DNA from: Priestia megaterium NBRC 15308 = ATCC 14581
Lineage (GTDB): Bacteria; Bacillota; Bacilli; Bacillales; Bacillaceae_H
Reading direction: 5' to 3'
Length of the DNA stretch: 64,000 nt
NCBI RefSeq assembly: GCF_000832985.1
Contig: NZ_CP009920.1
Coordinates: forward strand, 3,776,501 to 3,840,500
This document shows, in pieces, positions 22,709 to 49,646 of this stretch (position 1 is the stretch's first letter; each line of letters opens with the position of its first letter). A program made the translations under genes and the position numbers. The notes beneath the pieces were generated by a model. It saw only the letters and a list, made by a program, of their open reading frames with translations, was not told the origin of the DNA and searched no databases.

Positions 22709-24001
22709 CTATAGATTAATACCTTTCATAAGACGGAAGGTTTCAAGAAGTAAAACGTTTAACCCTAGCCATACGCCTCCAAATACATATCCTGCTGCAA
22801 TATCGCTGGGATATTGTATGCTGAGATACAAACGACTAATCGCAATAAGCAACAAAATAAGAATGGCTGCTATTGGTGCTAATGTAGGAACCCATAATCT
22901 TTTAGAGTGTCGAACCAGCATAAACACAGCAAACCCATAAATAACAAAAGCCATTAAAGACTGTTCGCTTGGAAAGGTGTATGAAAGGTGTTCTATTAAC
23001 GACTTTCTAATAGGGGAGAAATGATGGAAAATTCGTCTCAGACTTTCTTCGTACAGCTCTCCGCCGCCTGCAACAGCTACCAGAGATAATAATTCAATTT
23101 TTTTATCTCTGCCTTTCCATAAAATCCATACAAGTGTAAAGAAAATCAATGCTACCAGAACTTGCCTGGATCCCAGCGTGAAAAATACCCGCATTGGTAC
23201 ATTCCAATCTTTATTAAAAAGGGCTGTTATTAATAGACTCGTTATTTTGTTAAAATCTCCAAACTCGTTTGCGATAAAGTCTTGCGTCATTCCAATCATA
23301 AGCAGAATAAACCCTAATGTTACTAATGCTGTAAATATAAAAACAAGCCCTGCCCGTTTCCGCGTATGAAACACATTTACTATCCACTTGAGACAATTAA
23401 TTGCTATCTTTTTAATCGTTACTTTGAACTTTTTATAAATGTAAATAGCAACGAACAAACTTACAGCTACAATCATCCCAATGATAAAGTACTTCTTGAT
23501 AGAATGATGAAACTGTTCCCACTGAGGTCCTAATAACTTTCCTAGAGTAATAAATGTGGTGACCCAAAGAAATGATCCGCTATAGGCGTACAGTGCATAC
23601 GTACGAAAAGGAAGCCGAGTAATTCCTGAAAAATATCCTGTAATATGTCTAATAACTGGGAGGAAATAAGCAATAATCAACAGTTTGTTTCCATGTACAC
23701 TAAACCATTTTGACATTCTTTCAATTCGCTCTGGCCCCATATGAAGAGTTTTTCCGTATTTATCAAAAAAAGGAGTCCCTAACTTATAACCAACTCCGTA
23801 GGCTATGGTCATTCCAACCATACTGCCCATACCGGCAACCAAGATACTTCCCACCCAGCTCAAATGTCCTTGAAAGGCAAGAACCCCAGCGTAGCCCATG
23901 AGCAGCTCCCCTGGAAGAGGAAGAGCAAGAAGTTCCAGCATCAATGCTAGAAACAGCACGATATATCCGTATTGATTTATATAAGATGTGATAAAATCCA
24001 T
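22709..24001 (-). CDS. DedA-PAP2 fusion with degenerate PAP2 motifs
   Basis: Start ATG 24001 with GAAGGA upstream; 430 residues. Residues 1-200 are a DedA/SNARE-associated membrane domain (LPLPGELLMGYAGVLA; later FLPVIRHITGYFSGI). A second hydrophobic half has the PAP2 phosphatase layout, but its catalytic motifs are altered: PSGH reads PSEQ (344-347), the second catalytic His is Gln396 in YLSIQYPSD, and the first RP is SP. The DedA half may be a lipid transporter while the PAP2 half binds lipid without hydrolysis. It is divergent from a glycolipid synthase gene, which supports an envelope role. Confidence 0.8.
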   Translation of the reverse strand: MDFITSYINQYGYIVLFLALMLELLALPLPGELLMGYAGVLAFQGHLSWVGSILVAGMGSMVGMTIAYGVGYKLGTPFFDKYGKTLHMGPERIERMSKWFSVHGNKLLIIAYFLPVIRHITGYFSGITRLPFRTYALYAYSGSFLWVTTFITLGKLLGPQWEQFHHSIKKYFIIGMIVAVSLFVAIYIYKKFKVTIKKIAINCLKWIVNVFHTRKRAGLVFIFTALVTLGFILLMIGMTQDFIANEFGDFNKITSLLITALFNKDWNVPMRVFFTLGSRQVLVALIFFTLVWILWKGRDKKIELLSLVAVAGGGELYEESLRRIFHHFSPIRKSLIEHLSYTFPSEQSLMAFVIYGFAVFMLVRHSKRLWVPTLAPIAAILILLLIAISRLYLSIQYPSDIAAGYVFGGVWLGLNVLLLETFRLMKGINL

Positions 24002-27715: not shown

Positions 27716-27751
27716 CCTCCCTTCTCATGAAAGGGTAGGCTTTATTTTTTG
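27714..27751. terminator. Bidirectional terminator
   Basis: AGCCTCCCTT pairs with AAGGGTAGGCT, with T runs on both strands. It ends the membrane gene and the ger operon, which converge here. Confidence 0.75.
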
Positions 27752-28832
27752 TTTTATATATGCTGTAATCAGCAATAGGATGGGAATTGCTATATGAAAA
27801 GGGAGGTGCAATAAATAAGGAACAATTTTGAGTCCTTCATTTATATGAGCTTGGTAACTAGGAGCAATCATCAGTGAGGAGAAAAAAATAACACCGCCAA
27901 TTAAATAAATGTTTGTAACAGAAGGTTTCATCCGAAACAAATCAGCCGCGCCAATCACTGCACAAAAGAAATAGATGGTTATTTTAACAAAACCTAAAAT
28001 GACCATGAGAATAAGAATAAAGGTATCCAGTCTTTGAATAAAACTAGCTATGTTAATGTAACTCACAGCTGTAAGAGCCGGGAAAGAGGATCTTAAAACA
28101 GTCTCTGGTCCGAGTACACACAAAAGAATAATTGAATTAATGGTTAAGGCAATTCCTCCTATTATAATGGCGGATAAACCAATTGTTGCGGCCTGATTTT
28201 TTTTATTTAAATAAGGAAGAATCATAGTAAAGGTAATCAATTCCCCGAAAGGTACAGTAATGCCAAGAGGGACTAACTCTTTTCCTATGTTTCCCCATCC
28301 ATTCGCTAATACGGGTTGAAGGTTCTCCACCTTGATGTAGCCTCCTACTACATACAAAATATTTAATATAAAAAGAGTCAGTAAAATAACAACAAAACAT
28401 AAGCATGTAACTCGTGCGAATGCTTCTATTCCTAAGTGAGTACTATAAATTAACACAAAGGTCATGCATATACCCAGTGTAATAATCGATGTAACATAGT
28501 AAGAAGAGCTAATTAGTAATTCTTCAAAATCACGTAGTACTCTGGAAGCAATATAAACAAAATATATAATATAACAAAAGCTGATAGCACCGCCTACGTA
28601 CGTATTTACCCCAGATTTTAATGAGGTAGCCAGTCAAAGGCATATTAGGGTATCTCTTATATAAGGAGATATAGACTAAATACAGTAAACATCCAAAAAA
28701 AGTAGCCAAAAGGGGGACTATCCATGCATCTTGCCTAGCAGCCTTTCCGATATCTAAAAGCAGCGTACTGCCTAATATAAAGATAAACATCATACAAAAT
28801 AATTGAAACCCGTCGATTTTTATTTTAGTCAA
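27725..28832 (-). pseudogene. Spore germination receptor B subunit (GerAB type), frameshifted
   Basis: Two open frames together give one GerB-type amino-acid-permease-like protein of about 368 residues and 10 helices. The N-terminal part (TTG 28832, AGGAG upstream) reaches IKIWGKYV and then leaves frame. The other frame continues as GGAISFCYIIYFVYIASRVL into the second half. At 28595-28604 TACG is present twice (TACGTACGTA); removing one copy restores the frame. The gene follows the C subunit by 19 bases. The receptor is probably inactive unless the duplication is a sequence error. Confidence 0.85.
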
Positions 28833-37612: not shown

Positions 37613-39427
37613 ATGATACAAGACTTTAATAAATATACGCCCTTTGATTATAACCAAATAAAAAATAACGAACTTGTTCATAGATGGATGAGACCTCTTT
37701 CCGCTAACCTGATAGAAGGTCAAACATTAAAGGAAGCCATTCATTTACTAGATATGCACGGTATTGAGGGGTTACCTGTTGTTTCCGCACAACAGAAAGT
37801 TATAGGGGTGCTGACAACTCCGGAATTATTGAGATCCTTAACTGGATGCCACTCACTAAATACCAAAGTTGAAGAAGTTATGAAGCCTTCAATAAACAGT
37901 GTTAGTCCTCATGACTCTATTGACACAGCTTGGAAAATACAAGGAGGGATTTTACCTGTTATAGATGAAAAAGAAAAATTGGTCGGGTTATTAACTAAAA
38001 CGGATATTCTTCATTCGTATTCTTTCTATTTAAAGCATCTCCAAGAAAATCCTTATGCTGTTGAAACATTAGACGCTGTTCTAGAAAGCGCTTACGAAGG
38101 TATTGTTATTGTGGACACAAATGGAATTATTAAGGAGTTTAACGCGGCCTACTGCCGTTTTTTAGGAAAAAAACGTGAAGAAGCTATTGGAAAACATGTC
38201 ACAGAGATTATAGAAAATACCCGTGTGCATATCGTTAGTGAAACGGGGACAGATGAAAGAGGTTATGTTCAACGTATCCAAGGTCAAGACATGATTGTTC
38301 ATCGTATTCCGATTAGAAAGGAAGAGAAAATTGTAGGAGCAATTGGCATGCTTATCTTTGAAGGCGTCAGTGAGCTTTATAATATCTTAGGTCGTATGCA
38401 GGAATTGTCCCGAAAAGTAACAGAATCTCATTTGCCAAATCCTGAACAAATAGAGAATAACAATCATTTTGATCAAATTATTGGAGAAAGTCCCGCAATA
38501 CAAACCGTAAAAGAGATTGCTAGAAAAGCAGCAAAAACACCTTCTACCGTATTAATTACTGGAGAAAGTGGCACCGGAAAAGAATTATTCGCAAAAGCAA
38601 TTCACTATTCTAGTCCATTTTCAGAAGGACCCTTTGTTAGTATCAATTGTGCCGCTATTCCTGAACAATTACTTGAAGCAGAGTTATTTGGCTATGAGGA
38701 AGGAGCATTTACAGGAGCACGCAAAGGAGGAAAGCCAGGTAAATTTGAACAAGCTCATAAAGGTACCTTATTTCTAGATGAAATTGGAGACATGCCCCTA
38801 CTTATGCAAGCTAAGATACTCCGAGTATTACAAGACAGAGAAGTGGAGCGAGTCGGAGGAATGAAAAGTCAACATGTAGACGTACGAATTATTGCTGCTA
38901 CTAATAAAAGGTTAGAAGAGCTAGTTAAGAAGGGAGAGTTCCGTGAAGATTTATATTATCGTTTAAACATTATTCGTTTGAGTATTCCGCCACTTATAGA
39001 AAGAAAAGAGGATATTCAAATATTACTCATACACCACCTTAAAAATTTTTGTGAAAAGTTTGGAATCATTAAAAAAAGCTTTTCTTTTGAAGCAATGCGG
39101 TATTTACAAGAATATCAATGGCCAGGAAATATACGGGAACTTGTCAATACGGTGGAAATGTTAGTAAGTCTAGTAGAAAATCAAGAAATTACGGAAGAAG
39201 ACTTACCTGCTCATTTTCGAAAAAAAGATACAAGCTCTTTTATAACAGAAAAAAATAGTGATACAAACAGACTCTTAAAAAAGGTAAGAGAAGATATTTT
39301 ATCTAGTGAAAAAGACACTATTTTGAGAACGCTTGCTGACGTGAACGGTAATAAGGCTGCTGCCGCGAGAATTCTTGGAATTCAGCGTTCTACTCTTTAC
39401 ATAAAATTAAAAAAATACGGATTATAG
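37613..39427 (+). CDS. Sigma-54-dependent activator with CBS and PAS domains
   Basis: 604 residues, ATG after AGGAGG. Two CBS repeats (about 25-80 and 88-142), a PAS domain (about 150-262), then an AAA+ domain with Walker A GESGTGKE (317-324) and the sigma-54 contact loop GAFTGA (364-369), and a Fis-type HTH at the C-terminus (NKAAAARILGIQRSTLYIKL). CBS pairs usually bind adenosyl ligands and PAS binds a small effector. It should bind the dyad just after its own stop and activate the -24/-12 promoter of the dehydrogenase operon. Confidence 0.95.
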   Translation: MIQDFNKYTPFDYNQIKNNELVHRWMRPLSANLIEGQTLKEAIHLLDMHGIEGLPVVSAQQKVIGVLTTPELLRSLTGCHSLNTKVEEVMKPSINSVSPHDSIDTAWKIQGGILPVIDEKEKLVGLLTKTDILHSYSFYLKHLQENPYAVETLDAVLESAYEGIVIVDTNGIIKEFNAAYCRFLGKKREEAIGKHVTEIIENTRVHIVSETGTDERGYVQRIQGQDMIVHRIPIRKEEKIVGAIGMLIFEGVSELYNILGRMQELSRKVTESHLPNPEQIENNNHFDQIIGESPAIQTVKEIARKAAKTPSTVLITGESGTGKELFAKAIHYSSPFSEGPFVSINCAAIPEQLLEAELFGYEEGAFTGARKGGKPGKFEQAHKGTLFLDEIGDMPLLMQAKILRVLQDREVERVGGMKSQHVDVRIIAATNKRLEELVKKGEFREDLYYRLNIIRLSIPPLIERKEDIQILLIHHLKNFCEKFGIIKKSFSFEAMRYLQEYQWPGNIRELVNTVEMLVSLVENQEITEEDLPAHFRKKDTSSFITEKNSDTNRLLKKVREDILSSEKDTILRTLADVNGNKAAAARILGIQRSTLYIKLKKYGL

Positions 39428-39523: not shown

Positions 39524-39540
39524 TTGGCACGGTTCTTGCA
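39524..39540 (+). promoter_or_regulatory. Sigma-54 (-24/-12) promoter
   Basis: TTGGCAC-GGTTC-TTGCA matches the SigL consensus TGGCAC-N5-TTGCA exactly, with GG and GC ten bases apart. It is 35 bases before the ATG of the alcohol dehydrogenase gene. Confidence 0.93.
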
Positions 39541-39575: not shown

Positions 39576-40778
39576 ATGAAAGGGTATTCAAAATTTTGTA
39601 TGCCTAACTCAGTCTTTTATGGGGAAAATTCTTTAGCTCAGCTTGGAGAGCAAGTGAGAGCTTATGGAAAGAAAGTACTTTTAATTAGTGATCGTGTTAT
39701 GGAAAAAATAGGACATGTAAGAAGTTGCGAAAAAATACTAGAGGATTTAAATGTTTCTTATGCTGCATACTTAGATGTTAATACAGAGCCTACGGATTTA
39801 CACGTTAATGAAGCATTAAACCTGTGTCTAAGAGAGCAATGCGGTGTTATTATCGCAATAGGTGGAGGAAGCTGCATTGATGCTGCCAAAGCTGTAGCTG
39901 TAGTAGCAACCAATGGTAGTTATATTGGTGATTTTGCAGGCGGAAAGTCTCCAATTACAGAAGATCCTCTTCCGCTTATTGCAATTCCAACTACGGCTGG
40001 AACGGGTTCAGAAGTAACAAATGTTACCGTAATTACGAATACCAAGGAAGATATAAAAATGATGATTAAACATCAAGCATTTCTTCCGAAAGTAGCGATT
40101 GTAGATCCAATTTTCACAATTTCTACTCCTCCACAAGTTACAGCAGCAACGGGAATTGATGCACTTTGTCATGCTGTTGAAGCTTATATATCACGTTTAT
40201 CTCAACCGTTAACGGAAACATTGGCTCTTTCATCGATAGAAGCTATTTTGAACCATTTAAGAAAAGTTTATCAAGATGGAGAGGATTCAGACGCAAGGGA
40301 AAAAATGGCCATTGCTTCTATGGAAGCTGGACTTGCTTTTAGTAATGCTTCTGTGACGCTAATTCATGGAATGTCCCGTCCAATTGGTGCTTTATTTCAT
40401 GTACCTCATGGTATTTCAAATGCAATGTTACTTCCAGCGGTACTTGAATTTACAAAGGAAGCTGCTATCGATTCGCTAGCAAAAATAGGACATCTAATTT
40501 ATCCAGAATCGAAATCATTAAACAAAGAAGAGCTAGCTGATGTGGCTATTGAGAAAATAAAGCAACTTTGTTGTGACTTAGATATTCCTAATATGAAAGC
40601 ATGGGGAATAGATGAACGAGAGTTTCAAAAAGTAGTTGATAAAATGGCAACGGATGCACTAGCAAGCGGCAGTCCTGGAAATAACCCAAAAGTGCCTACT
40701 CATCAAGAAATAGTGGATTTGTACTATTACTGCTATAACTACAATTTTTCAAGAAGCAAAAATACTGTTGAATCTTAA
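39576..40778 (+). CDS. Iron-containing alcohol dehydrogenase
   Basis: Start ATG 39576 after AAGGAGGG; the frame is open to 39504, but that part overlaps the promoter. 400 residues. [10 protein letters not shown] (96-105) binds the nucleotide, [11 protein letters not shown] is family typical, and the four metal ligands are Asp195, His199, His264 and His278. It should oxidise an alcohol to an aldehyde with NAD(P). Paired with a CoA-acylating semialdehyde dehydrogenase under SigL control, so a hydroxyacid (for example 3-hydroxypropionate) or diol is a plausible substrate. Confidence 0.92.
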
Positions 40779-40812: not shown

Positions 40813-42273
40813 ATGGAAACTACAACTAATACAAAAGTAATTCAAAACTATATTGCCGGTGAATGGGTAGAGTCATCTACAAGGATTAGAGAGAAAGTCT
40901 ATAACCCTGCAACTGGAGAAGTAATTGCAGAGGTGCCTCTTTCAACAAAAGAAGATGTAGATCAAGCTGTCCGAGCTGCGAATGAAGCATTTAAGGGCTG
41001 GTCCAAGACAGCAGTTCCAAAACGGGCGCGAATCTTATTTAAGTATCAACAGCTATTAGTAGATAACTGGGATGAATTAGCAAGGTTAGTGACGATTGAA
41101 AATGGAAAAAGCTTTAATGAAGCACATGGTGAAGTACAACGTGGTATTGAATGCGTGGAATTTGCTGCGGGCGCTCCTACCTTAATGATGGGGAAACAGC
41201 TTCCTGATATTGCGACAGGCATTGAATCTGGCATGTACCGCTATCCAATTGGCGTAATTGGAGGGATTACACCGTTTAACTTTCCAATGATGGTTCCTTG
41301 CTGGATGTTCCCTCTTGCGATTGCTTGCGGTAATACATTTGTCTTAAAACCATCTGAGCGTACGCCGCTTTTAGCTGCAAGATTAGTAGAATTATTTGAA
41401 GAAGCTGGATTGCCAAAAGGCGTATTAAACATTGTAAACGGCGCGCATGATGTGGTAAATGGTCTTCTTGAACATAAATTAGTGAAAGCTATTTCTTTTG
41501 TTGGTTCTCAGCCAGTAGCTGAATACGTATACAAAAAAGGTACAGAAAATTTAAAGCGTGTTCAGGCTTTAGCCGGTGCAAAAAATCACTCAATTGTACT
41601 AAATGATGCTGACTTAGACGTAGCAACAAAGCAAATTATTGGTGCTGCCTTCGGCTCGGCAGGTGAGCGTTGTATGGCCGCTTCTGTTGTAACGGTACAA
41701 GAGGAAATTGCAGATAAATTAATCAATCGTTTAGTAGAAGAAGCAAACAACATCGTCATTGGAAACGGCCTAGAAAAAGATGTCTTCTTAGGACCCGTTA
41801 TTCGTGAAAATCACAAAGAGCGTACGCTTAGCTACATAAAATCAGGCATAGAGGAAGGAGCTCGGTTAGTTCGGGATGGCCGTGAAGATAGTGCAGTAAA
41901 AGATAAAGGCTATTTTGTAGGGCCAACTATTTTTGATCATGTCACACAAGAAATGAAAATCTGGCAAGATGAGATTTTTGCACCAGTATTATCGATTGTA
42001 CGTGTAAAATCACTAGAAGAAGCAATTGAGGTAGCGAATAATTCCCGATTTGCAAATGGTGCTTGCATTTACACAGATAGTGGTGCAAGCGTCCGCGAGT
42101 TCCGTGAAAATATTGAGTCAGGCATGTTAGGAGTCAATGTAGGAGTGCCAGCTCCTATGGCGTTCTTCCCATTCTCGGGCTGGAAAGACTCTTTCTACGG
42201 TGATCTTCATGCAAACGGCACAGATGGCGTAGAGTTCTATACAAGAAAGAAAATGGTTACGGCTCGTTACTAA
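40813..42273 (+). CDS. CoA-acylating (methyl)malonate-semialdehyde dehydrogenase-like
   Basis: Start ATG 40813 with AAAAGGAG upstream; 486 residues, the length of MmsA/IolA. Catalytic Cys287 in GERCMA is preceded by Arg286, and Arg110 in VQRGIE is also kept; these two arginines mark the methylmalonate-semialdehyde group. The lack of the usual Glu general base region fits thioester release to CoA. Predicted to convert a malonic-type semialdehyde, NAD and CoA to acyl-CoA and CO2. Second gene of the SigL operon, 34 bases after the alcohol dehydrogenase. Confidence 0.88.
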
Positions 42274-42374: not shown

Positions 42375-42412
42375 AGTCGCAAAGACCTTTTCCACTAAGG
42401 CTTTGCGACTTT
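42375..42412 (+). terminator. Terminator of the SigL operon
   Basis: AGTCGCAAAG pairs with CTTTGCGACT and is followed by TTTTTT. Confidence 0.92.
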
Positions 42413-42656
42413 TTTGTGTTTTAATAATATTATAGAGACATTTGCCTGAAAATTGAAATGTCACGGGATTATTTTAATTCCTCTTAGTATTTATTAAACC
42501 ACTTTTTTATTACCTTTTCTCAAAAAATGATAATAATAATATAATAGTCAATTGTTAAAATAGAGAAATATCTATAATATAAATATATCTAGTCTAGTTA
42601 TTAACGAGTTTTTATATTAAGAAAACGTACTATAGAGGGAACAGGGAGAGGTAAAT

Positions 42657-43664
42657 ATGAAAAAAAAACAAATTAATGCAATAGAAGTGGCTAAGTTAGC
42701 TAATGTATCACAATCGACGGTTTCTAGGGTATTTACTCCAGGTGCCAAGGTGTCTCCTAGGACACAAAAACGCGTGTTAGAAGCTGCTCAAAAAATAGGA
42801 TATCGCCCAAATGCTTTAGCAAGAGGATTAATAACTAATAAGACTAATATAATTGGACTTGTAATGGGTAATATTCAAAACCCTTTTTATCCAGAAATCC
42901 TTGATGAATTCACAAAAAGTTTGTACGAAAAAGGGTATCATGTACTTTTTTTTCATACAAAGAATGATGCAATTACCCAAGATGAAGTATCTCAATTTCT
43001 TGAATACAATGTAGAGGGTGTGATAGTGACAGACGTTTTGCTATCTTCAAATGTTGTCTCCAAACTTTCTACACATGATATACCTATTATCCTTTTCAAT
43101 CGATATACCCAAGATTCTACCTGTCATTCTGTATGTTGTGATAATTATTCAGCGGGCATGAAAATCGGGGAATATTTATTTAAACAAGGTCATCAAAAGT
43201 TCACTTATATTACCGGTCGTACCAATACATCAACGAGTCGTGATCGTGAGAGGGGATTTGCTGAGTTTCTTTTACAAAAAGGAATAAAACCGGTAATTGA
43301 AGAAGGTGATTACACTTATGAAGCTGGTTACACTGTAGCAATGCGTGTACTAAAAAATAGAAATCGTCCGGATGCTATTTTTTGTGCAAATGATATTGTA
43401 GCTTTAGGAGTAATAGATGCTGCTAAAATATTAGGAATATCTATTCCAAATGAATTGTCAATTGTAGGATTTGATGATATTTCAATGGCCTCCTGGCCTC
43501 CTTATTCTTTAACAACTTGGCAGCAACCAGTAAAAGAAATGATTGAAGCAACTATTAATATGTTATTAAATACAGTGGATGGAGAAGCGACCAAGCCTCA
43601 ATCTCTACTTTTTTCAGGCAAGCTTCTTGAGAGAAAGTCTGTAAAACTTCTCAAAAATAGTTGA
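42657..43664 (+). CDS. LacI-family transcriptional regulator
   Basis: 335 residues. The N-terminal HTH (AIEVAKLANVSQSTVSRVF, then hinge GYRPNALARGL) precedes a periplasmic-binding-protein-like effector domain (IIGLVMGNIQNPFYPE; RPDAIFCANDIVALGVIDA; LSIVGFDDISMASW). Likely the repressor of the downstream hisD-like operon, whose leader has three palindromes with the central CG typical for LacI family operators. The effector should be the substrate or an intermediate. Confidence 0.93.
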   Translation: MKKKQINAIEVAKLANVSQSTVSRVFTPGAKVSPRTQKRVLEAAQKIGYRPNALARGLITNKTNIIGLVMGNIQNPFYPEILDEFTKSLYEKGYHVLFFHTKNDAITQDEVSQFLEYNVEGVIVTDVLLSSNVVSKLSTHDIPIILFNRYTQDSTCHSVCCDNYSAGMKIGEYLFKQGHQKFTYITGRTNTSTSRDRERGFAEFLLQKGIKPVIEEGDYTYEAGYTVAMRVLKNRNRPDAIFCANDIVALGVIDAAKILGISIPNELSIVGFDDISMASWPPYSLTTWQQPVKEMIEATINMLLNTVDGEATKPQSLLFSGKLLERKSVKLLKNS

Positions 43665-43770
43665 CAATGAAAGGGCTATCATTTATGATTTAGTAGACAC
43701 AATAGTGTGAATTGTGCAAATAATAGGTTTTTTCTAAAAGGGATACATAATATCTCTTTTGTAACTAAAA

Positions 43771-43788
43771 ATGCATACGTATGCAAAT
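43771..43788. promoter_or_regulatory. LacI-type operator copy 1
   Basis: Contains the palindrome TGCATACGTATGCA (43772-43785), with A/T flanks. First of three copies between the lacI-type gene and the hisD-like gene. Confidence 0.85.
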
Positions 43789-43858
43789 AGCTTTTTATTA
43801 AAGTTAGGAAGCTTACTATTAATTGAATTAATACTACTATGATTTTAAAATTCTGTTT

Positions 43859-43882
43859 CAAAATGCATACGTATGCATTTTG
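43859..43882. promoter_or_regulatory. LacI-type operator copy 2 (24-bp perfect palindrome)
   Basis: Same core as copy 1, and the symmetry extends to 12 bases on each side (CAAAA outer arm). The most symmetric and probably strongest site. Centre 92 bases from copy 1 and 49 from copy 3. Confidence 0.88.
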
Positions 43883-43910
43883 GGAATGTTGTTAAATGAA
43901 GCATGAATTT

Positions 43911-43929
43911 AATGCATACGTATACAAAT
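43911..43929. promoter_or_regulatory. LacI-type operator copy 3
   Basis: Core TGCATACGTATACA (one change from copy 1), ending just before the ribosome binding site of the hisD-like gene. Confidence 0.82.
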
Positions 43930-43946
43930 AAAGGGAGAGATTTGTC

Positions 43947-45233
43947 ATGGCGAAAGTTTTTAAACAGGGGAAAAGTCAGGAAGAAATTAATCAAAATGAT
44001 ATGCAAGTATCAGCAATAGTAAGTCAAACCATTAAAAAAATTGAGGACGAAGGAGATAGTGCAGTTAGAGAACTATCAAGAAAATTTGATAATTGGTCTC
44101 CGGAAAATTTCAGATTGAGCAATCAACAAATCATTGAGATCGTGAATAGTGTACCAAAGCAAACAATTGAAGATATTAAATTTGCTCAAAATAATGTAAA
44201 AAGATTTGCTGAAGAACAGAGAAAATCTATGCTAGACATTGAAGTAGAAACATTACCTGGTGTTATTTTAGGCCATAAAAATATTCCAGTTGGAAGTGTT
44301 GGATGTTATATTCCTGGTGGACGTTATCCTATGGTTGCTTCTGCACATATGAGTGTACTGACAGCAAAGGTAGCTGGAGTAAATCGAGTGATTGCTTGTA
44401 CTCCACCTATTGGAGGAGAAATTCCATCAGCTACAGTAGCAGCCATGCATTTAGCAGGAGCCGATGAAATCTACATTCTTGGGGGAATTCAAGCAATGGC
44501 TGCCATGGCTGTTGGTACGGAAACAATTGAACCTGTAGATATGCTGGTAGGGCCAGGTAATGCTTATGTGGCAGAAGCAAAACGTCAATTATACGGTCGT
44601 GTTGGAATTGATCTCTTTGCAGGCCCTACAGAAACATTAGTTGTAGCTGATGAAACAGCAGACGCAGAAATGATTGCCACTGACATTTTAGGACAGGGAG
44701 AACATGGACCAACTTCACCGGGAGCATTAATTACAACATCTGAAAAGTTAGCTCAAGAAACTGTAAAAGAAATTGAACGTCAGCTCGAAAAGCTCCCAAC
44801 AGCTGATGTAGCACGTGTTTCATGGGAGGATTACGGAAAAATCATAATTGTAGAAAATGAACAGGAAGCTTTAATAGAAGCAGACAAATTAGCTTTTGAA
44901 CACGTTGAAATCTTAACTGAAAATCCAGATTATTTTTTAGAAAACATGAATAATTACGGATGTTTGTTTTTAGGTCCTGAGACAAATGTAGCTTACGGTG
45001 ATAAAGTCATTGGTACAAACCATACGCTTCCAACAAAAGGAGCTGCACGCTATACTGGTGGACTGTGGGTAGGTAAATTTTTAAAAACATGTACTTATCA
45101 AAAGGTTACAGAAGAAGCTAGCGCGCATATTGGGGAATATGCAGCACGCCTTTGTCAACTAGAGAACTTCTCTGGGCATGCTGAACAAGCTTTACTTCGC
45201 GTACGTCGTTATGGAAAAGTAACAGCAAAATAA
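43947..45233 (+). CDS. Histidinol-dehydrogenase-family enzyme (HisD paralogue, HpsN-like)
   Basis: 428 residues, ATG after AAGGGAGAG. All catalytic and zinc positions of the HisD family are present: Gln250 and His253 in GQGEHG, Glu318-His319 in FEHVEI, Asp352 in YGDK, His in GTNHTLPT, Glu406 and His411 in ENFSGH. So a four-electron NAD oxidation of a primary alcohol to a carboxylate is expected. No other his gene is near. The neighbours (LacI, permease, SDR, HAD-like enzyme) argue for a catabolic substrate, as with HpsN (sulfopropanediol). Controlled by three operators. Confidence 0.85.
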
Positions 45234-45238
45234 CCAAT

Positions 45239-45273
45239 AAAAGGGATGCATAAACTTTTTATGTATCCTTTTT
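45239..45273 (+). terminator. Terminator-like hairpin after the hisD-like gene
   Basis: AAAAGGGATGCATAAA pairs with TTTATGTATCCTTTT (one extra base), then T. It may limit read-through into the permease gene. Confidence 0.65.
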
Positions 45274-45324
45274 CAGTAAGTTTTTGTTCTTTAGATGAAT
45301 TACTGATTATCCCTATTAAAATAT

Positions 45325-45338
45325 TGAAAGCGTTTGCT
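45325..45338 (+). promoter_or_regulatory. Catabolite responsive element (cre)-like site
   Basis: TGAAAGCGTTTGCT fits the CcpA consensus except near the 3' end. It lies 130 bases before the permease start, so the second part of the operon is probably carbon-catabolite controlled. Confidence 0.6.
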
Positions 45339-45432
45339 TTTAGAGGGCTAGCGGTAGAATTACTAGAGCTTAATATGGTTTAAAGGCTAAAAATTTAAAC
45401 TAAGAAAGAAAATATAATAAGTTGCGACGAGA

Positions 45433-45468
45433 AATATAGGGGGAGAAACAAATATAGGGGGAGAAACA
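45433..45468 (+). repeat. Perfect 18-bp tandem duplication covering the ribosome binding site
   Basis: The unit AATATAGGGGGAGAAACA occurs twice in direct succession, immediately before the ATG of the permease gene. Two GGGGGAG sites result, and only the second is at proper distance. Confidence 0.95.
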
Positions 45469-46905
45469 ATGGATTTAGTCATCATTATACTTGCTTTAGG
45501 GCTCTTAATGCTTATTGCTTACCGAGGTTTTTCTGTCATTCTTTTTGCGCCTCTATGTGCATTACTTGCGGTTATATTAACGGAACCTAGCTATGCTTTA
45601 CCTTTCTTTTCTAATATTTTTATGGAAAAGATGGTCGGCTTTATTAAGAACTATTTTCCAGTCTTTTTATTAGGAGCAGTTTTTGGAAAGTTAGTTGAAA
45701 TGTCTGGAATTGCTGAATCTATAGCTAAAACAATCATAAATTTAGTGGGTCGAAAACGAGCTATTTTAGCTATCGTTCTCATGTGTGCAATATTAACTTA
45801 CAGCGGAGTCAGTTTGTTTGTAGTAGCGTTTGCCGTTTATCCATTTGCAGCGAACCTTTTTCGAGAAGCTAACATTCCTAAGCGACTTATTCCTGGAACC
45901 ATTGCTTTAGGAGCTTTATCTTTTACAATGGATGCTATGCCGGGAACACCTCAAATTCAAAATGTAATACCGACTTCTTTTTTTAAGACAGATATTTATG
46001 CAGCTCCTATATTAGGAATAACTGGATCGCTCTTTGTACTTTGCCTAGGACTTCTTTATTTGGAAAGACGCCGTAAAAAAGCTCAAAGTGCAGGTGAAGG
46101 TTATTTTGGTTTTAATGGTGCTGGGGAAGAGATAGCTGTTGCTGCTGAAACAGTTAATATGTCAGCTGCTCCTTCTACTAATTCTGCTAGTATTGGGCGT
46201 CAGGTATTAGCATTTGTTCCTCTGATTTTAGTTGGAGTGGCCAATAAATTTTTCACTATATCTATTCCAAAGTGGTACCCAGAAGGTTTTGATTTTTCTA
46301 AGTTAGGTTTAGAAGCCTTTGGAAAAGTAGACTTAGCAACAGTAACAGGAATTTGGTCGGTAGAGCTAGCTTTAGTGCTAGGTATTATTACAGCACTTGC
46401 CTATGACTGGAAGCGCGTGACTAGTGGATTTCAACAAGGTATTAATGCCAGTATTGGCGGAGCTCTGCTAGCAGCTATGAATACAGGTTCTGAATATGGT
46501 TTTGGTGGAGTTATTGCATCTCTTCCCGGATTTGCAACTGTACGGGATAGCATCTCACATACTTTTACAAATCCACTTATTAATGGAGCTGTTACAACAA
46601 ACGTATTAGCTGGAATCACGGGTTCAGCATCTGGCGGAATGGGGATAGCACTGAGTGCTATGGGAGATAAGTATATACAAGCTATTACACAATATAATAT
46701 TCCTCCTGAAGTTATGCACCGTGTCGTAGCGATGGCATCGGGTGGGATGGATTCCTTACCTCATAACGGAGCCGTAATTACCCTACTTGCTGTTACTGGA
46801 TTAACCCATAAACAAGCTTATGGAGATATCTTTGCAGTGACTATTTTTAAAACACTCGCATGCTTCTTTGTAATCCTTGTTTATAGTTTAACTGGTTTAG
46901 TTTGA
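45469..46905 (+). CDS. GntP-family permease
   Basis: 478 residues with about 12 helices. GALSFTMDAMPGTPQIQN and the C-terminal ASGGMDSLPHNGAVITLLAVTGL are signatures of GntP/IT-superfamily carriers of gluconate-like and short hydroxy acids (including 3-hydroxybutyrate permeases). It probably imports the substrate of the enzymes encoded around it by proton symport. ATG behind a duplicated ribosome binding site; the SDR gene follows after 37 bases. Confidence 0.85.
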   Translation: MDLVIIILALGLLMLIAYRGFSVILFAPLCALLAVILTEPSYALPFFSNIFMEKMVGFIKNYFPVFLLGAVFGKLVEMSGIAESIAKTIINLVGRKRAILAIVLMCAILTYSGVSLFVVAFAVYPFAANLFREANIPKRLIPGTIALGALSFTMDAMPGTPQIQNVIPTSFFKTDIYAAPILGITGSLFVLCLGLLYLERRRKKAQSAGEGYFGFNGAGEEIAVAAETVNMSAAPSTNSASIGRQVLAFVPLILVGVANKFFTISIPKWYPEGFDFSKLGLEAFGKVDLATVTGIWSVELALVLGIITALAYDWKRVTSGFQQGINASIGGALLAAMNTGSEYGFGGVIASLPGFATVRDSISHTFTNPLINGAVTTNVLAGITGSASGGMGIALSAMGDKYIQAITQYNIPPEVMHRVVAMASGGMDSLPHNGAVITLLAVTGLTHKQAYGDIFAVTIFKTLACFFVILVYSLTGLV

Positions 46906-46942
46906 TAATAGAATCTATGAATCTAATAAAAGGAGGATTATA

Positions 46943-47704
46943 GTGACTTATTTTTCTGAACTCAAAGGAAAAAAAGTGCTGGTTACTGGAGGTAGTAAAG
47001 GGATTGGTAAGGATATTGCTTTGGCGCTCGCTAAACAAGGGGCAGACGTAGTCATTACAGGGCGTAACGAAGCTGATTTAGTGTCGACTACAAATGAATT
47101 AAAGCGGATTCATCCCAATTCTTTCTACTTAAAAGCAGATATACAAGATATACAAAGTGTGCATGAAATGGTAGATAACGCAGTTTCTACATTAGGTAAT
47201 ATTGATATACTCATAAACAATGCAGGCATTAATATTGCAAAACCAGCACTAGAAGTAACCGAAAAAGATTGGAATCAAGTCATAGACACCAATCTTAAAG
47301 GAACCTTTTTCTGTGCACAAAGAGTAGGCAAACATATGATAGAACAAGGAGGAGGAAAGATTATTAATATGGCGTCCCAAATGGCTTTTGTAGGGTATAT
47401 TAAGCGCTCTGTCTATTGTTCTAGTAAAGGCGGCGCAGTTCAGTTAACAAAAGCACTTGCAGTTGAGTGGGCACCCTATAACGTAAGAGTAAATGCTGTG
47501 GCTCCTACTTTTATCGAGACAGATTTTACGAAAGAAATGTTTGAAGATGAGGAATTTTATCAGGATGTTGTTTCCCGTATCCCTTTAGGAAAATTGGCTC
47601 AGCCCTCCGATGTTAGAGGAGCAGTTCTTTTTTTAGCTTCCGATTTAGCTCAGTTTATAACAGGAGAAACAATTAAAGTAGATGGAGGGTGGACAGCAAT
47701 ATGA
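46943..47704 (+). CDS. Short-chain dehydrogenase/reductase (SDR)
   Basis: 253 residues, GTG start after AAAAGGAGG. The nucleotide site is TGGSKGIG, the NNAG motif LINNAGIN, and the catalytic YxxxK SVYCSSKGG with Ser nearby in MASQMAF; it ends in ITGETIKVDGGW. Classical FabG/gluconate-dehydrogenase type. It would oxidise a secondary hydroxyl of the permease substrate or reduce the ketone. It overlaps the next gene by four bases (ATGA). Confidence 0.9.
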   Translation: MTYFSELKGKKVLVTGGSKGIGKDIALALAKQGADVVITGRNEADLVSTTNELKRIHPNSFYLKADIQDIQSVHEMVDNAVSTLGNIDILINNAGINIAKPALEVTEKDWNQVIDTNLKGTFFCAQRVGKHMIEQGGGKIINMASQMAFVGYIKRSVYCSSKGGAVQLTKALAVEWAPYNVRVNAVAPTFIETDFTKEMFEDEEFYQDVVSRIPLGKLAQPSDVRGAVLFLASDLAQFITGETIKVDGGWTAI

Positions 47705-48660
47705 GTGTTTCTAAAGAAGAATTAGCAATTATAGGTTCTGGTACAATGGGGCATTCTATCGCTTTATCTGCATCTATAGCAGGCTTCAACGTGAAAATTT
47801 GGGGAATAGATGATAATGATATTCACCGTGGGAAGCAAGGTATTGATGAAAAATTGAATTTGTTGACAACGTATGAGGTAGTGGATTCTAATGAGATAAA
47901 AAATATAAAAGAACGTATCTACTTTACAAATTCATTAAGAGAGTGTGTAAATAAGGCGAGTTTCGTGATTGAAGGAATTCCAGAAAACTTATACTTAAAA
48001 CAAAAAATGTTTCAAGAGTTAGATGAATTATGTTCCCAAAATGTAATACTTGCGAGTAACACATCCGGTTTGAGTCCAACTGATATTGCTGCTCTTACAT
48101 CATATCCGGAAAGAACAGTAGTTACACATTTTTGGAATCCAGGACATTTGATCCCTCTTGTAGAAGTAATACGGGGAGAGCAGACGTCAGAACAGACTGT
48201 TAATCGATCGCTTGAATTACTTGAAAACTTGAATAAAAAGCCTATTGTGGTTCAAAAAGATATCCTTGGTTCAATTGGAAATCGACTGCAGTATGCTTTA
48301 TTCCGTGAGGCTCAATATATTCTTGAGCAAGGGGTGGCCTCAATCGAGGATATTGATAAAGCTGTTTGTTACAGTATAGGTAGACGTTTGTCGGTGACAG
48401 GCCCATTTATGACAGCTGATATGGGAGGACTAGATGTATTTGATTCTATATCAGCCTATCTATTCCCCGATTTAAGCAATCATAATAAATCGTTTAGCAA
48501 GATAAAAAAACTTGTAGATGAGGGAAATTACGGACAAAAAACGGGAAAAGGATTTTATGAATGGTCACAGCAGCAATCAAAAAAAATGAACAAAGAACGT
48601 GAACAACAACTTATTTATTGGCTGAAAAGAGATTTAGAAGAGGAAAAAGAACAAAAATAA
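47701..48660 (+). CDS. 3-hydroxyacyl-CoA-dehydrogenase-family enzyme
   Basis: 319 residues; start ATG 47701 overlaps the SDR stop, with GGAGGG upstream. An N-terminal Rossmann fold (AIIGSGTMGHSIAL), an active-site region SNTSGLSPTDIA then THFWNPGHLIPLVEVIRG, and a C-terminal helical domain ending KTGKGFYEW. WNPGHLIPLVEV differs from the HPxNPP of fatty-acid enzymes and recalls relatives acting on free hydroxyacids (gulonate or carnitine dehydrogenases). Probably an NAD dehydrogenase of a small hydroxyacid. Confidence 0.85.
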   Translation: MSVSKEELAIIGSGTMGHSIALSASIAGFNVKIWGIDDNDIHRGKQGIDEKLNLLTTYEVVDSNEIKNIKERIYFTNSLRECVNKASFVIEGIPENLYLKQKMFQELDELCSQNVILASNTSGLSPTDIAALTSYPERTVVTHFWNPGHLIPLVEVIRGEQTSEQTVNRSLELLENLNKKPIVVQKDILGSIGNRLQYALFREAQYILEQGVASIEDIDKAVCYSIGRRLSVTGPFMTADMGGLDVFDSISAYLFPDLSNHNKSFSKIKKLVDEGNYGQKTGKGFYEWSQQQSKKMNKEREQQLIYWLKRDLEEEKEQK

Positions 48661-48710
48661 GTTCCTTTAATGAATAAATGAGCAAGTAAACCTTGAGAGG
48701 AAGTTATGAA

Positions 48711-48747
48711 AAAGAAAAGGATGATCCAAAGGGCCATCCTTTTCTTT
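48711..48747. terminator. Bidirectional terminator
   Basis: AAAGAAAAGGATG pairs with CATCCTTTTCTTT. Shared by the catabolic operon and the convergent EamA gene. Confidence 0.88.
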
Positions 48748-49646
48748 TATTTTGATACTAGAAGAGGCTTTGAGGTTTTCGGTTTTATACTGACAAGTAT
48801 TATACTGAAAATGACTAATAAGAGACCTACTAGTAGATTCATTGTAATTGGTTCTTTTAAAAATAATGAACTTGCTGTAATAGAAATAATAGGGATTAAA
48901 AAAGTATAGGTGGAAACTTTGCTTGCTTCTCCTGAACTAACAAGTGTAAAGAAATCAAGCCAACCCAGAGCAATGACGAACACAGATATGAACAACAATA
49001 CGGCGATAAAAGCCGGATTCCATGAAATAGATGACCAGCTTTCTGTAAGTGTTCCGGAAGCCATTAAAAATAATCCACCAATAATAATGTGCAGTGTAGT
49101 AAGCCAAATTCCATCAACTTTATTAGAGGTTTTTTTCATAAATACAGTACCAAAAGCCCAACTTAAAGCAGAACCTAATGCAAGACAAATGCCTGTAATA
49201 GAAATATGGCCTTTTAAACCTCCAAGACAAATGACAAGAACGCCCGCAAATCCTAAAATAAGACCTAATATTTTGAAGGGATACATTGATTCACCAAGCC
49301 AAATCCAAGAAAATAATCCCATTAAGATTGGTTGAAAGAAAACAATCGCGGTAAAAAGTCCGGCCGGTAAATAATTTAATCCAATCGTCTGAAGTCCATA
49401 GAATAAGATGATATTAAATAGTGCGGATATAAAATAAATAGGCCATGTCTCTTTAAAACGAAGCATTTTATATCTAGGAACGGCAATTATGAGTAATATG
49501 ATTCCGCCGATAAATAATCGTATACCTGCAAATAAAAGTGGTGGAGAGTAGTGCAGCGCGAATTTCGTTAGAGGCCAGTTTATTCCCCACATAAAAACAA
49601 GAAATGCAAGAAAAAATCCAATTCGCGTTTTAGAATATTGCTTCAT
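48747..49646 (-). CDS. EamA/DMT-family transporter
   Basis: 299 residues, ATG after AAGGAGG. Ten helices in two EamA repeats (WGINWPLTKFALHYSPPLLFAG, then ALSWAFGTVFMKK). Probably exports a metabolite or amino acid. Divergent from a LysR gene 97 bases away that is its likely regulator. The adjacency to the catabolic operon may be chance. Confidence 0.88.
   Translation of the reverse strand: MKQYSKTRIGFFLAFLVFMWGINWPLTKFALHYSPPLLFAGIRLFIGGIILLIIAVPRYKMLRFKETWPIYFISALFNIILFYGLQTIGLNYLPAGLFTAIVFFQPILMGLFSWIWLGESMYPFKILGLILGFAGVLVICLGGLKGHISITGICLALGSALSWAFGTVFMKKTSNKVDGIWLTTLHIIIGGLFLMASGTLTESWSSISWNPAFIAVLLFISVFVIALGWLDFFTLVSSGEASKVSTYTFLIPIISITASSLFLKEPITMNLLVGLLLVIFSIILVSIKPKTSKPLLVSK

Follow-up and report, generated by a model that had tools for sequence, protein, structure and literature searches.

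The window analysed here is a stretch of 64,000 nucleotides from Priestia megaterium NBRC 15308 = ATCC 14581 (contig NZ_CP009920.1, positions 3,776,501 to 3,840,500), and its subject is a set of five genes on the + strand at 42657-48660, which a first-pass annotation had read as a LacI-controlled operon around a paralogue of histidinol dehydrogenase (HisD). The set begins with a LacI-family regulator of the operon (42657..43664; Pfam LacI and Peripla_BP, a sugar-binding domain), followed by the HisD paralogue itself (43947..45233; Histidinol_dh, 466 bits), a predicted zinc- and NAD-dependent dehydrogenase with the motif GRYPM that is sister to HpsN. Downstream lie a GntP-superfamily permease, probably a carboxylate importer (45469..46905; Pfam GntP), a short-chain dehydrogenase/reductase (SDR; 46943..47704; Pfam adh_short) and a hydroxyacid dehydrogenase of the 3-hydroxyacyl-CoA dehydrogenase (3HCDH) family (47689..48660; Pfam 3HCDH_N and 3HCDH); the last two start at GTG and share 16 bases. 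All five open reading frames (ORFs) are open, and the Pfam and profile matches agree with the families first assigned to them, the permease being a borderline case. The best solved-structure match of the 3HCDH-family enzyme is 5-formyl-3-hydroxy-2-methylpyridine-4-carboxylic acid (FHMPC) dehydrogenase (198 bits), the named substrate of which is not a CoA ester. The ORF list of the window's operon shows no dehydratase, kinase or aldolase. Elsewhere in the genome, two more permeases (C6:4897635 and C6:3861177) are 84% and 74% identical to that of the operon.

The genome holds two matches to Histidinol_dh. The second, at C6:1894596 and 1.9 Mb away, is flanked by frames that read as hisZ/hisG and hisB-H-A-F-I (names assigned by sequence reading), and the gene at 43947-45233 is therefore not the histidine gene; the two proteins are 34% identical. 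This agrees with the first-pass description of the paralogue as lying far from any his gene, and the case that had been held against it, a strain without a canonical hisD using this gene for histidine synthesis, is not that of this genome, which has its canonical hisD in place.

The closest solved structures to the paralogue are those of HpsN, the (R)-2,3-dihydroxypropane-1-sulfonate (DHPS) 3-dehydrogenase of Cupriavidus pinatubonensis (385 bits; PDB 8v35-8v37, 9cp7-9cp9), with the Ruegeria pomeroyi enzyme (8wwe) at 361 bits and the best HisD at 278 bits. A fold search, made with a weak model, also ranked HpsN first, with a root-mean-square deviation near 20. We compared 129 sequences in a tree, comprising 112 members of the clade, 4 HpsN-type sequences, 3 canonical HisD and 10 further HisD-type rows. 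The window enzyme falls inside the 112-member clade (Shimodaira-Hasegawa-like approximate likelihood ratio 99), which is sister to the four HpsN-type sequences (97) and apart from canonical HisD, the ten further rows falling outside both the clade and the HpsN group. This tree was built quickly, drawn by midpoint and came with warnings of long branches; its 112 clade rows are what remained of 129, duplicates included, once rows sharing their last 300 residues were removed, and three canonical sequences remained after the loci L029 and L031 were left out. Both the tree and the ranking of structures uphold the comparison with HpsN from which the first-pass annotation had argued.

According to the partial text of the HpsN study, Gln248, His251, Asp352 and His411 bind zinc, Glu318 and His319 are catalytic, and the sulfonate is contacted by Lys353 and by His126, which is conserved in HpsN (PMC11382572). 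All six zinc and catalytic residues (C. pinatubonensis HpsN numbering) are invariant in the clade (112/112), as had been claimed for the window enzyme. Lys353 is also kept in 112/112, whereas the three canonical HisD sampled have Tyr at this position. At position 126 the clade has Met (105 members) or Leu (7) and in no case His, which is present in 4/4 of the HpsN-type loci sampled. Further differences from HpsN are His in place of Tyr at position 131 (109/112 members) and Thr at 226 where the C. pinatubonensis enzyme has Ser. The motif given in the same text is GRY(A/S)H for HpsN and GSAPL for HisD (PMC11382572). Thus the paralogue resembles HpsN in its superfamily fold, zinc ligands, catalytic Glu/His, Lys353, the letters GRY and its LacI, SDR and transporter neighbours, and departs from it in the residues above, in an identity of about 45%, in the lack of a sulfolyase in the operon and in a 3HCDH-family partner that replaces HpsP, a medium-chain dehydrogenase/reductase (MDR). 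HisD belongs to the same superfamily, with two hydride transfers expected in both, and differs in clade, motif region and residue 353, as well as in the paralogue's position outside a his operon. The clade enzyme is not HpsN, judged by motif and gene company, nor is it HisD, and its action may resemble that of HpsN with a different side group.

As its partial text describes, the HpsN study built its sequence network from the 272 of 1000 sequences that had both hpsO and hpsP nearby (PMC11382572). Because this filter needs hpsP, it would omit the present enzyme and members like it that have no MDR-type hpsP. In the open-licence literature, judged by titles and the starts of abstracts, we recognised no paper describing the clade. 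We regard the undescribed catabolic pathway proposed in the first-pass annotation as a well-supported candidate.

To place the gene set among its relatives, we consider first its spread. An orthologue of at least 70% identity occurs in 21/299 genomes of the order, this one included (that of G253 is partial), and in 0/8 of the other genomes of the genus searched, which marks the gene set as accessory. In plasmid records, the best place reaches at least 60% identity in 124 of 380 matching records; the carriers listed belong to Bacillota, Bacteroidota, Pseudomonadota and Deinococcota. No identity between 49.1 and 60.7% occurs among the 60 plasmid matches of the spread listing. A Chloroflexota bin also carries a clade member (L150). 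Neighbourhoods were compared in 80 loci, the best 80 of 562 confirmed in the genome scan, so that all counts over these loci lean to close relatives. Within 7 kb of the HisD paralogue, LacI (identity limit 40%) was found in 61/80, the permease (30%) in 47, the SDR (50%) in 43 and the 3HCDH-type enzyme (49%) in 42. A loose clustering gave 65, 46 (GntP), 48 and 45, respectively. All four partners accompany the paralogue in 33/80 loci, and the set recurs in other genera; the search for the same five genes elsewhere, which had been suggested as a check, thus recovers them.

The set is not always complete. LacI and the permease occur without an SDR of at least 50% or a 3HCDH-type enzyme of at least 49% nearby in nine of the 80 loci. 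When six of these nine were searched genome-wide, five had a best 3HCDH relative of 33-38%, and L072 had one of 68% elsewhere. In 17 genomes searched for the 3HCDH-family enzyme, the best hit was 100% identical here, 65-68% in G168, G199 and G299, and at most 39% in the other 13. The SDR and 3HCDH genes of G299 stand apart from its HisD paralogue, after a sigma54 activator, an iron-containing alcohol dehydrogenase (Fe-ADH), a permease and an IolA-type gene (L201). Genes may be missing from L042, L045 and L097, since these loci end at contig ends.

Some further loci were noted in passing. L122, on a contig titled Pseudomonas sp. ISL-84, falls inside Bacillaceae in the tree with a gene order as in Cytobacillus, and is probably a mislabelled assembly. 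The haloarchaeal plasmid locus L164 brings together an SDR, a more distant HisD-type gene (about 40%), a short aldehyde-dehydrogenase-family gene and a 3HCDH-type gene. Members in Emticicia, Rhizobium rhizogenes and Novosphingobium (L064, L065 and L152) lie among fumarylacetoacetate-hydrolase, VOC or FAD-monooxygenase genes, which suggests an aromatic-compound setting.

Regulation of the operon was approached through its predicted operator. Of the 80 loci, 62 have a LacI-type palindrome, WTGMATACGTATKCAW, ahead of the HisD paralogue, and the predicted LacI target reads AATGCATACGTATGCATT. Three copies, given without strand, precede the paralogue in the window: copy 1, AATGCATACGTATGCAAA (43770..43787), copy 2, a perfect 24-base palindrome (43859..43882), and copy 3, AATGCATACGTATACAAA, with 2 mismatches (43911..43928). 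The window holds five matches with at most 2 mismatches against 0.16 expected, the remaining two being at 23594 and 41520. Over the whole genome, sites with 0-1 mismatch occur only here, those with 2 mismatches are copy 3 and C1:4726, and further ones have 3; a wider LacI regulon in this genome was accordingly rejected. Across the 80 loci, 85 of 101 sites with at most 1 mismatch lie upstream of the HisD paralogue. For 200 permuted palindromes the corresponding means were 0.43 sites in total and 0.1 upstream, with no more than 7 loci reached. By the loose clustering, the operator stands before the paralogue in 62/65 loci with a LacI relative and in 0/15 without one. In six loci (L116-L119, L122 and L124) it precedes the 3HCDH-SDR pair, which ties these two genes to the same regulator. 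Together, these patterns suggest that the LacI regulator acts through the predicted operator at the promoter of the HisD paralogue, and that operator and regulator are conserved together.

We also counted operators in 40 genomes chosen as carriers, two of which, G199 and G309, share their coordinates and are apparently a single genome. The exact operator occurs in 36 of them, with 63 forward sites, and the reversed control gave 0 or 1 per genome. Eleven of the 63 lie away from the HisD paralogue (G133, 2; G135, 2; G300, 4; G304, 2; G316, 1). Those of G304 C2, G300 C38 and G135 (L040) fall at a second LacI-type cluster with an SDR (53%), a HisD-type gene (39-41%), an HpcH-type aldolase, a hydrolase and SnoaL-like proteins, families assigned by Pfam for some genes of L197 and L198 and by likeness for the rest. 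Other extra sites lie near an ATP-binding cassette (ABC) importer (G300 C33) and near an SDR of 35% (G133 C8); no recognised genes were found in the surroundings read at G316 C3. As a separate observation, a second recurrent set appears in L040, L197, L198, L060, L153, L154 and L157, with a HisD-type gene and an SDR, often a LacI, an HpcH or RraA aldolase, an alpha/beta hydrolase, a cupin, a SnoaL-like protein ('ester cyclase') and sometimes an amidase; in L040, L197 and L198 this set carries the operator sequence as well. Within the window's operon, the gap between the HisD paralogue and the permease contains a 16-base inverted repeat (45239-45273; 88%) that has the word ATGCATA in common with the operator and may serve as an attenuator or for processing.

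Read from sequence, these genes suggest, with a probability that we put at about 0.5, a catabolic operon under LacI control whose substrate is a small hydroxylated carboxylate, probably free of sulfur. The permease would import an acid. The HisD paralogue would then oxidise a terminal CH2OH beside a zinc-bound carbinol to a 2-hydroxy acid in two NAD-linked steps that remove four electrons, with the acid tail bound by Lys353 at the place of the sulfonate in HpsN. The SDR and the 3HCDH-family enzyme may act with opposite handedness, interconverting stereoisomers or oxidising a secondary hydroxyl; in the partial text of the HpsN study, HpsO and HpsP are proposed to act on the secondary hydroxyl with opposite handedness (PMC11382572). 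The SDR would resemble HpsO by role only: partner SDRs from other phyla are 31-45% identical to it, a range that includes its 36% identity to HpsO, and direct orthology to HpsO was rejected on the latter value. Since LacI, the HisD paralogue and the permease suffice in some relatives, we expect the product to be a common metabolite that enters central metabolism directly. One candidate reaction is the conversion of 3,4-dihydroxybutyrate to malate, which would fit a minimal cluster without a lyase and would be the carboxylate counterpart of the conversion of DHPS to sulfolactate; this is a guess from chemical reasoning. We tentatively suggest, at longer odds than the operon's general role, that the clade forms a third class, by function, within the HisD superfamily, doing for carboxylates what HpsN does for sulfonates, in which the opposite-handed SDR and 3HCDH enzymes would set one hand and the HisD paralogue would then make a 2-hydroxy dicarboxylate such as malate without a lyase. 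The present data place members of this proposed class in Bacillota, Bacteroidota, Pseudomonadota, Deinococcota and Chloroflexota.

Several results weigh against the carboxylate reading. The permease scores 22.4 bits against Pfam GntP, where the curated cut-off is 22.5, and the low identity of the SDR to HpsO belongs here as well. The structure model of the HisD paralogue has a predicted local distance difference test score below 50 in the active-site loops, and residue contacts were for this reason taken from the alignment alone. Promoters and terminators predicted by a simple scan were no more frequent than in shuffled sequence (37 against 43.3, and 3 against 7.0, respectively). Clade members of Proteobacteria, Deinococcus and Bacteroidota lie beside aldolases, hydrolases, SnoaL-like or glycosidase-like genes; because neighbours vary in this way across phyla, substrates may differ by lineage, and one substrate for all is unlikely. 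This genome, in addition, encodes a relative of the CuyA/D-cysteine-desulfhydrase type (48%) far from the operon, which may provide one sulfonate exit here. Among 26 genomes searched, chosen as carriers, one has a SuyB-like protein of 64%, two have Xsc over the cut-off and three, this genome included, a CuyA-like protein of at least 48%; 12 other carriers have weaker SuyB matches of 29-40%, not told apart from other UxaA-family enzymes.

Among other substrates, an aldonic acid of four to six carbons has a doubtful claim; oxidation would yield an aldarate if it took place at the end carbon and a beta-keto acid if at C3. Such a substrate would suit the SMP-30/gluconolactonase relatives that adjoin members in L140 and L158, the enolase-superfamily protein of L139 and the annotated L-arabinonate dehydratase of L069, as well as the 3HCDH family itself, of which L-gulonate 3-dehydrogenase is a member. 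Against this, the window's operon has none of the dehydratases, kinases or aldolases named above, and in the minimal LacI-HisD-permease clusters an aldarate would be left without a local exit.

More doubtful still is a neutral diol or polyol (glycerol, propanediol or a tetritol) converted to an aldonic or 2-hydroxy acid. LacI proteins often bind sugars or polyols, sugar-type ABC importers adjoin members in L154 and L157, and glycosidase-like genes, named by sequence reading, lie near some Bacteroidota members. The GntP relative present near the paralogue in 47 of the 80 close loci argues for an acid instead, as does the invariance of Lys353, which in HpsN contacts an anionic group. In 15 non-Bacillota plasmid loci, the transporter genes beside the cluster were binding proteins of tripartite tricarboxylate transporters in 2, a tripartite ATP-independent periplasmic transporter in 1, major facilitator superfamily proteins in 3 and sugar ABC importers in 2. 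The first-pass annotation had offered a polyol or a hydroxyacid as the substrate; permease type and Lys353 favour the acid half of that proposal and the polyol half less.

A sulfonate substrate is unlikely. The enzyme would here be the HpsN of Bacilli, a true DHPS or sulfonate dehydrogenase yielding sulfolactate or a similar sulfonate, a reading for which HpsN is the closest characterised enzyme found, Lys353 is kept, the CuyA-type relative is present and the C. pinatubonensis hps cluster has the same plan of LacI, HisD-type enzyme, SDR and transporter. Against this stands the loss of the sulfonate-binding His126 in 112/112 clade members. In addition, neither an MDR (the HpsP type) nor a sulfolyase was found in the operon by ORF list and Pfam, this genome has no SuyB match and no Xsc over the cut-off, and 22 of the 26 carriers lack all three exits at the levels given above. 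The earlier proposal that, with no sulfonate gene here, the substrate may be sulfur-free is favoured by the results on His126, SuyB and Xsc and weakened by the CuyA-like relative. Separately, the HpsN-type genes of L161 (5941-7206) and L162 (5941-7254), which have His126, lie by genes for an aminotransferase, an amino acid racemase, a D-cysteine desulfhydrase and a sulfate exporter, a neighbourhood that looks like a cysteinolate to cysteate route. Finally, a spare histidinol dehydrogenase for histidine synthesis or histidinol catabolism, as the Pfam and TIGR00069 labels of the paralogue would have it, is very improbable and was rejected, given the canonical hisD among the his genes, the separate clade (relative to three canonical sequences) and the LacI and operator at the paralogue's promoter.

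For the carboxylate reading, the recurrent LacI-operated set and its defined operator make the inducer, and hence the substrate, directly testable. If it holds, one zinc enzyme fold would have been retuned from imidazole to sulfonate and (probably) carboxylate side groups. Clade members among the plasmid listings, where annotated, are mostly called hisD or histidinol dehydrogenase, labels that would mislead pathway reconstruction.

Upstream of the operon lies a sigma54-type module on the + strand, outside the coordinates to which the first-pass annotation applied and recurring with the five-gene set in some relatives. It comprises a CBS-PAS-sigma54 activator (37613..39427; Pfam CBS, PAS, Sigma54_activat and HTH_8), a -24/-12 promoter, TGGCACGGTTCTTGCA (39525..39540), which is the sole exact match in the window, an Fe-ADH identified by family match (39576..40778; start set after the ribosome site, downstream of this promoter) and an IolA-type (methyl)malonate-semialdehyde dehydrogenase (40813..42273; TIGR01722, 606 bits, cut-off 448.5). 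The best PDB match of the last is 1t90 (768 bits), and a second copy, 91% identical, lies elsewhere in the genome; the score above the cut-off and this copy make malonate or methylmalonate semialdehyde its likely substrate. After it, on the + strand, a 9-base-pair stem with a T run (42376..42415) is a possible terminator separating the two units, with a 16-base loop that exceeds the limits of the terminator scan, which did not list it.

Other loci supplied 18 Fe-ADH rows, of which 12 (two from a single genome) show the exact sigma54 promoter before the gene; L079, L114 and four more distant Fe-ADHs lack it. In L079 and L114, LacI-HisD is followed in the same orientation by the Fe-ADH, a permease and the IolA-type gene, in L079 after a gap of 409 bases. 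Within 7 kb of the HisD paralogue, an Fe-ADH of at least 50% occurs in 9/80 loci and an IolA type of at least 45% in 7/80, so the link is recurrent without being general. The Fe-ADH family includes HPHD-1 of Caenorhabditis elegans. In the partial text of one paper, HPHD-1 and ALH-8, the latter ALDH6A1-like, have 3-hydroxypropionate and malonic semialdehyde as their substrates in this animal (PMC4951191). The window's pair would most likely convert a 3-hydroxy acid, for example 3-hydroxypropionate, through the semialdehyde to acetyl-CoA. It resembles HPHD-1/ALH-8 and Bacillus IolA in combining an Fe-ADH-type enzyme with a CoA-acylating (methyl)malonate-semialdehyde dehydrogenase and differs from the C. 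elegans pair in being bacterial and sigma54-driven, a comparison made by family and from that one partial text.

Past the end of the operon, a 14-base-pair stem between convergent genes (48710..48748, given without strand) is a possible bidirectional terminator, found as an inverted repeat and not listed by the terminator scan. Further away, the spore germination permease of a gerX-type operon (27725-28465, - strand) seems shortened, its 246-residue frame covering only family positions 122-356, and the upstream stretch at about 28466-28832 seems to read, by eye, as the missing start of this germination permease in another frame.

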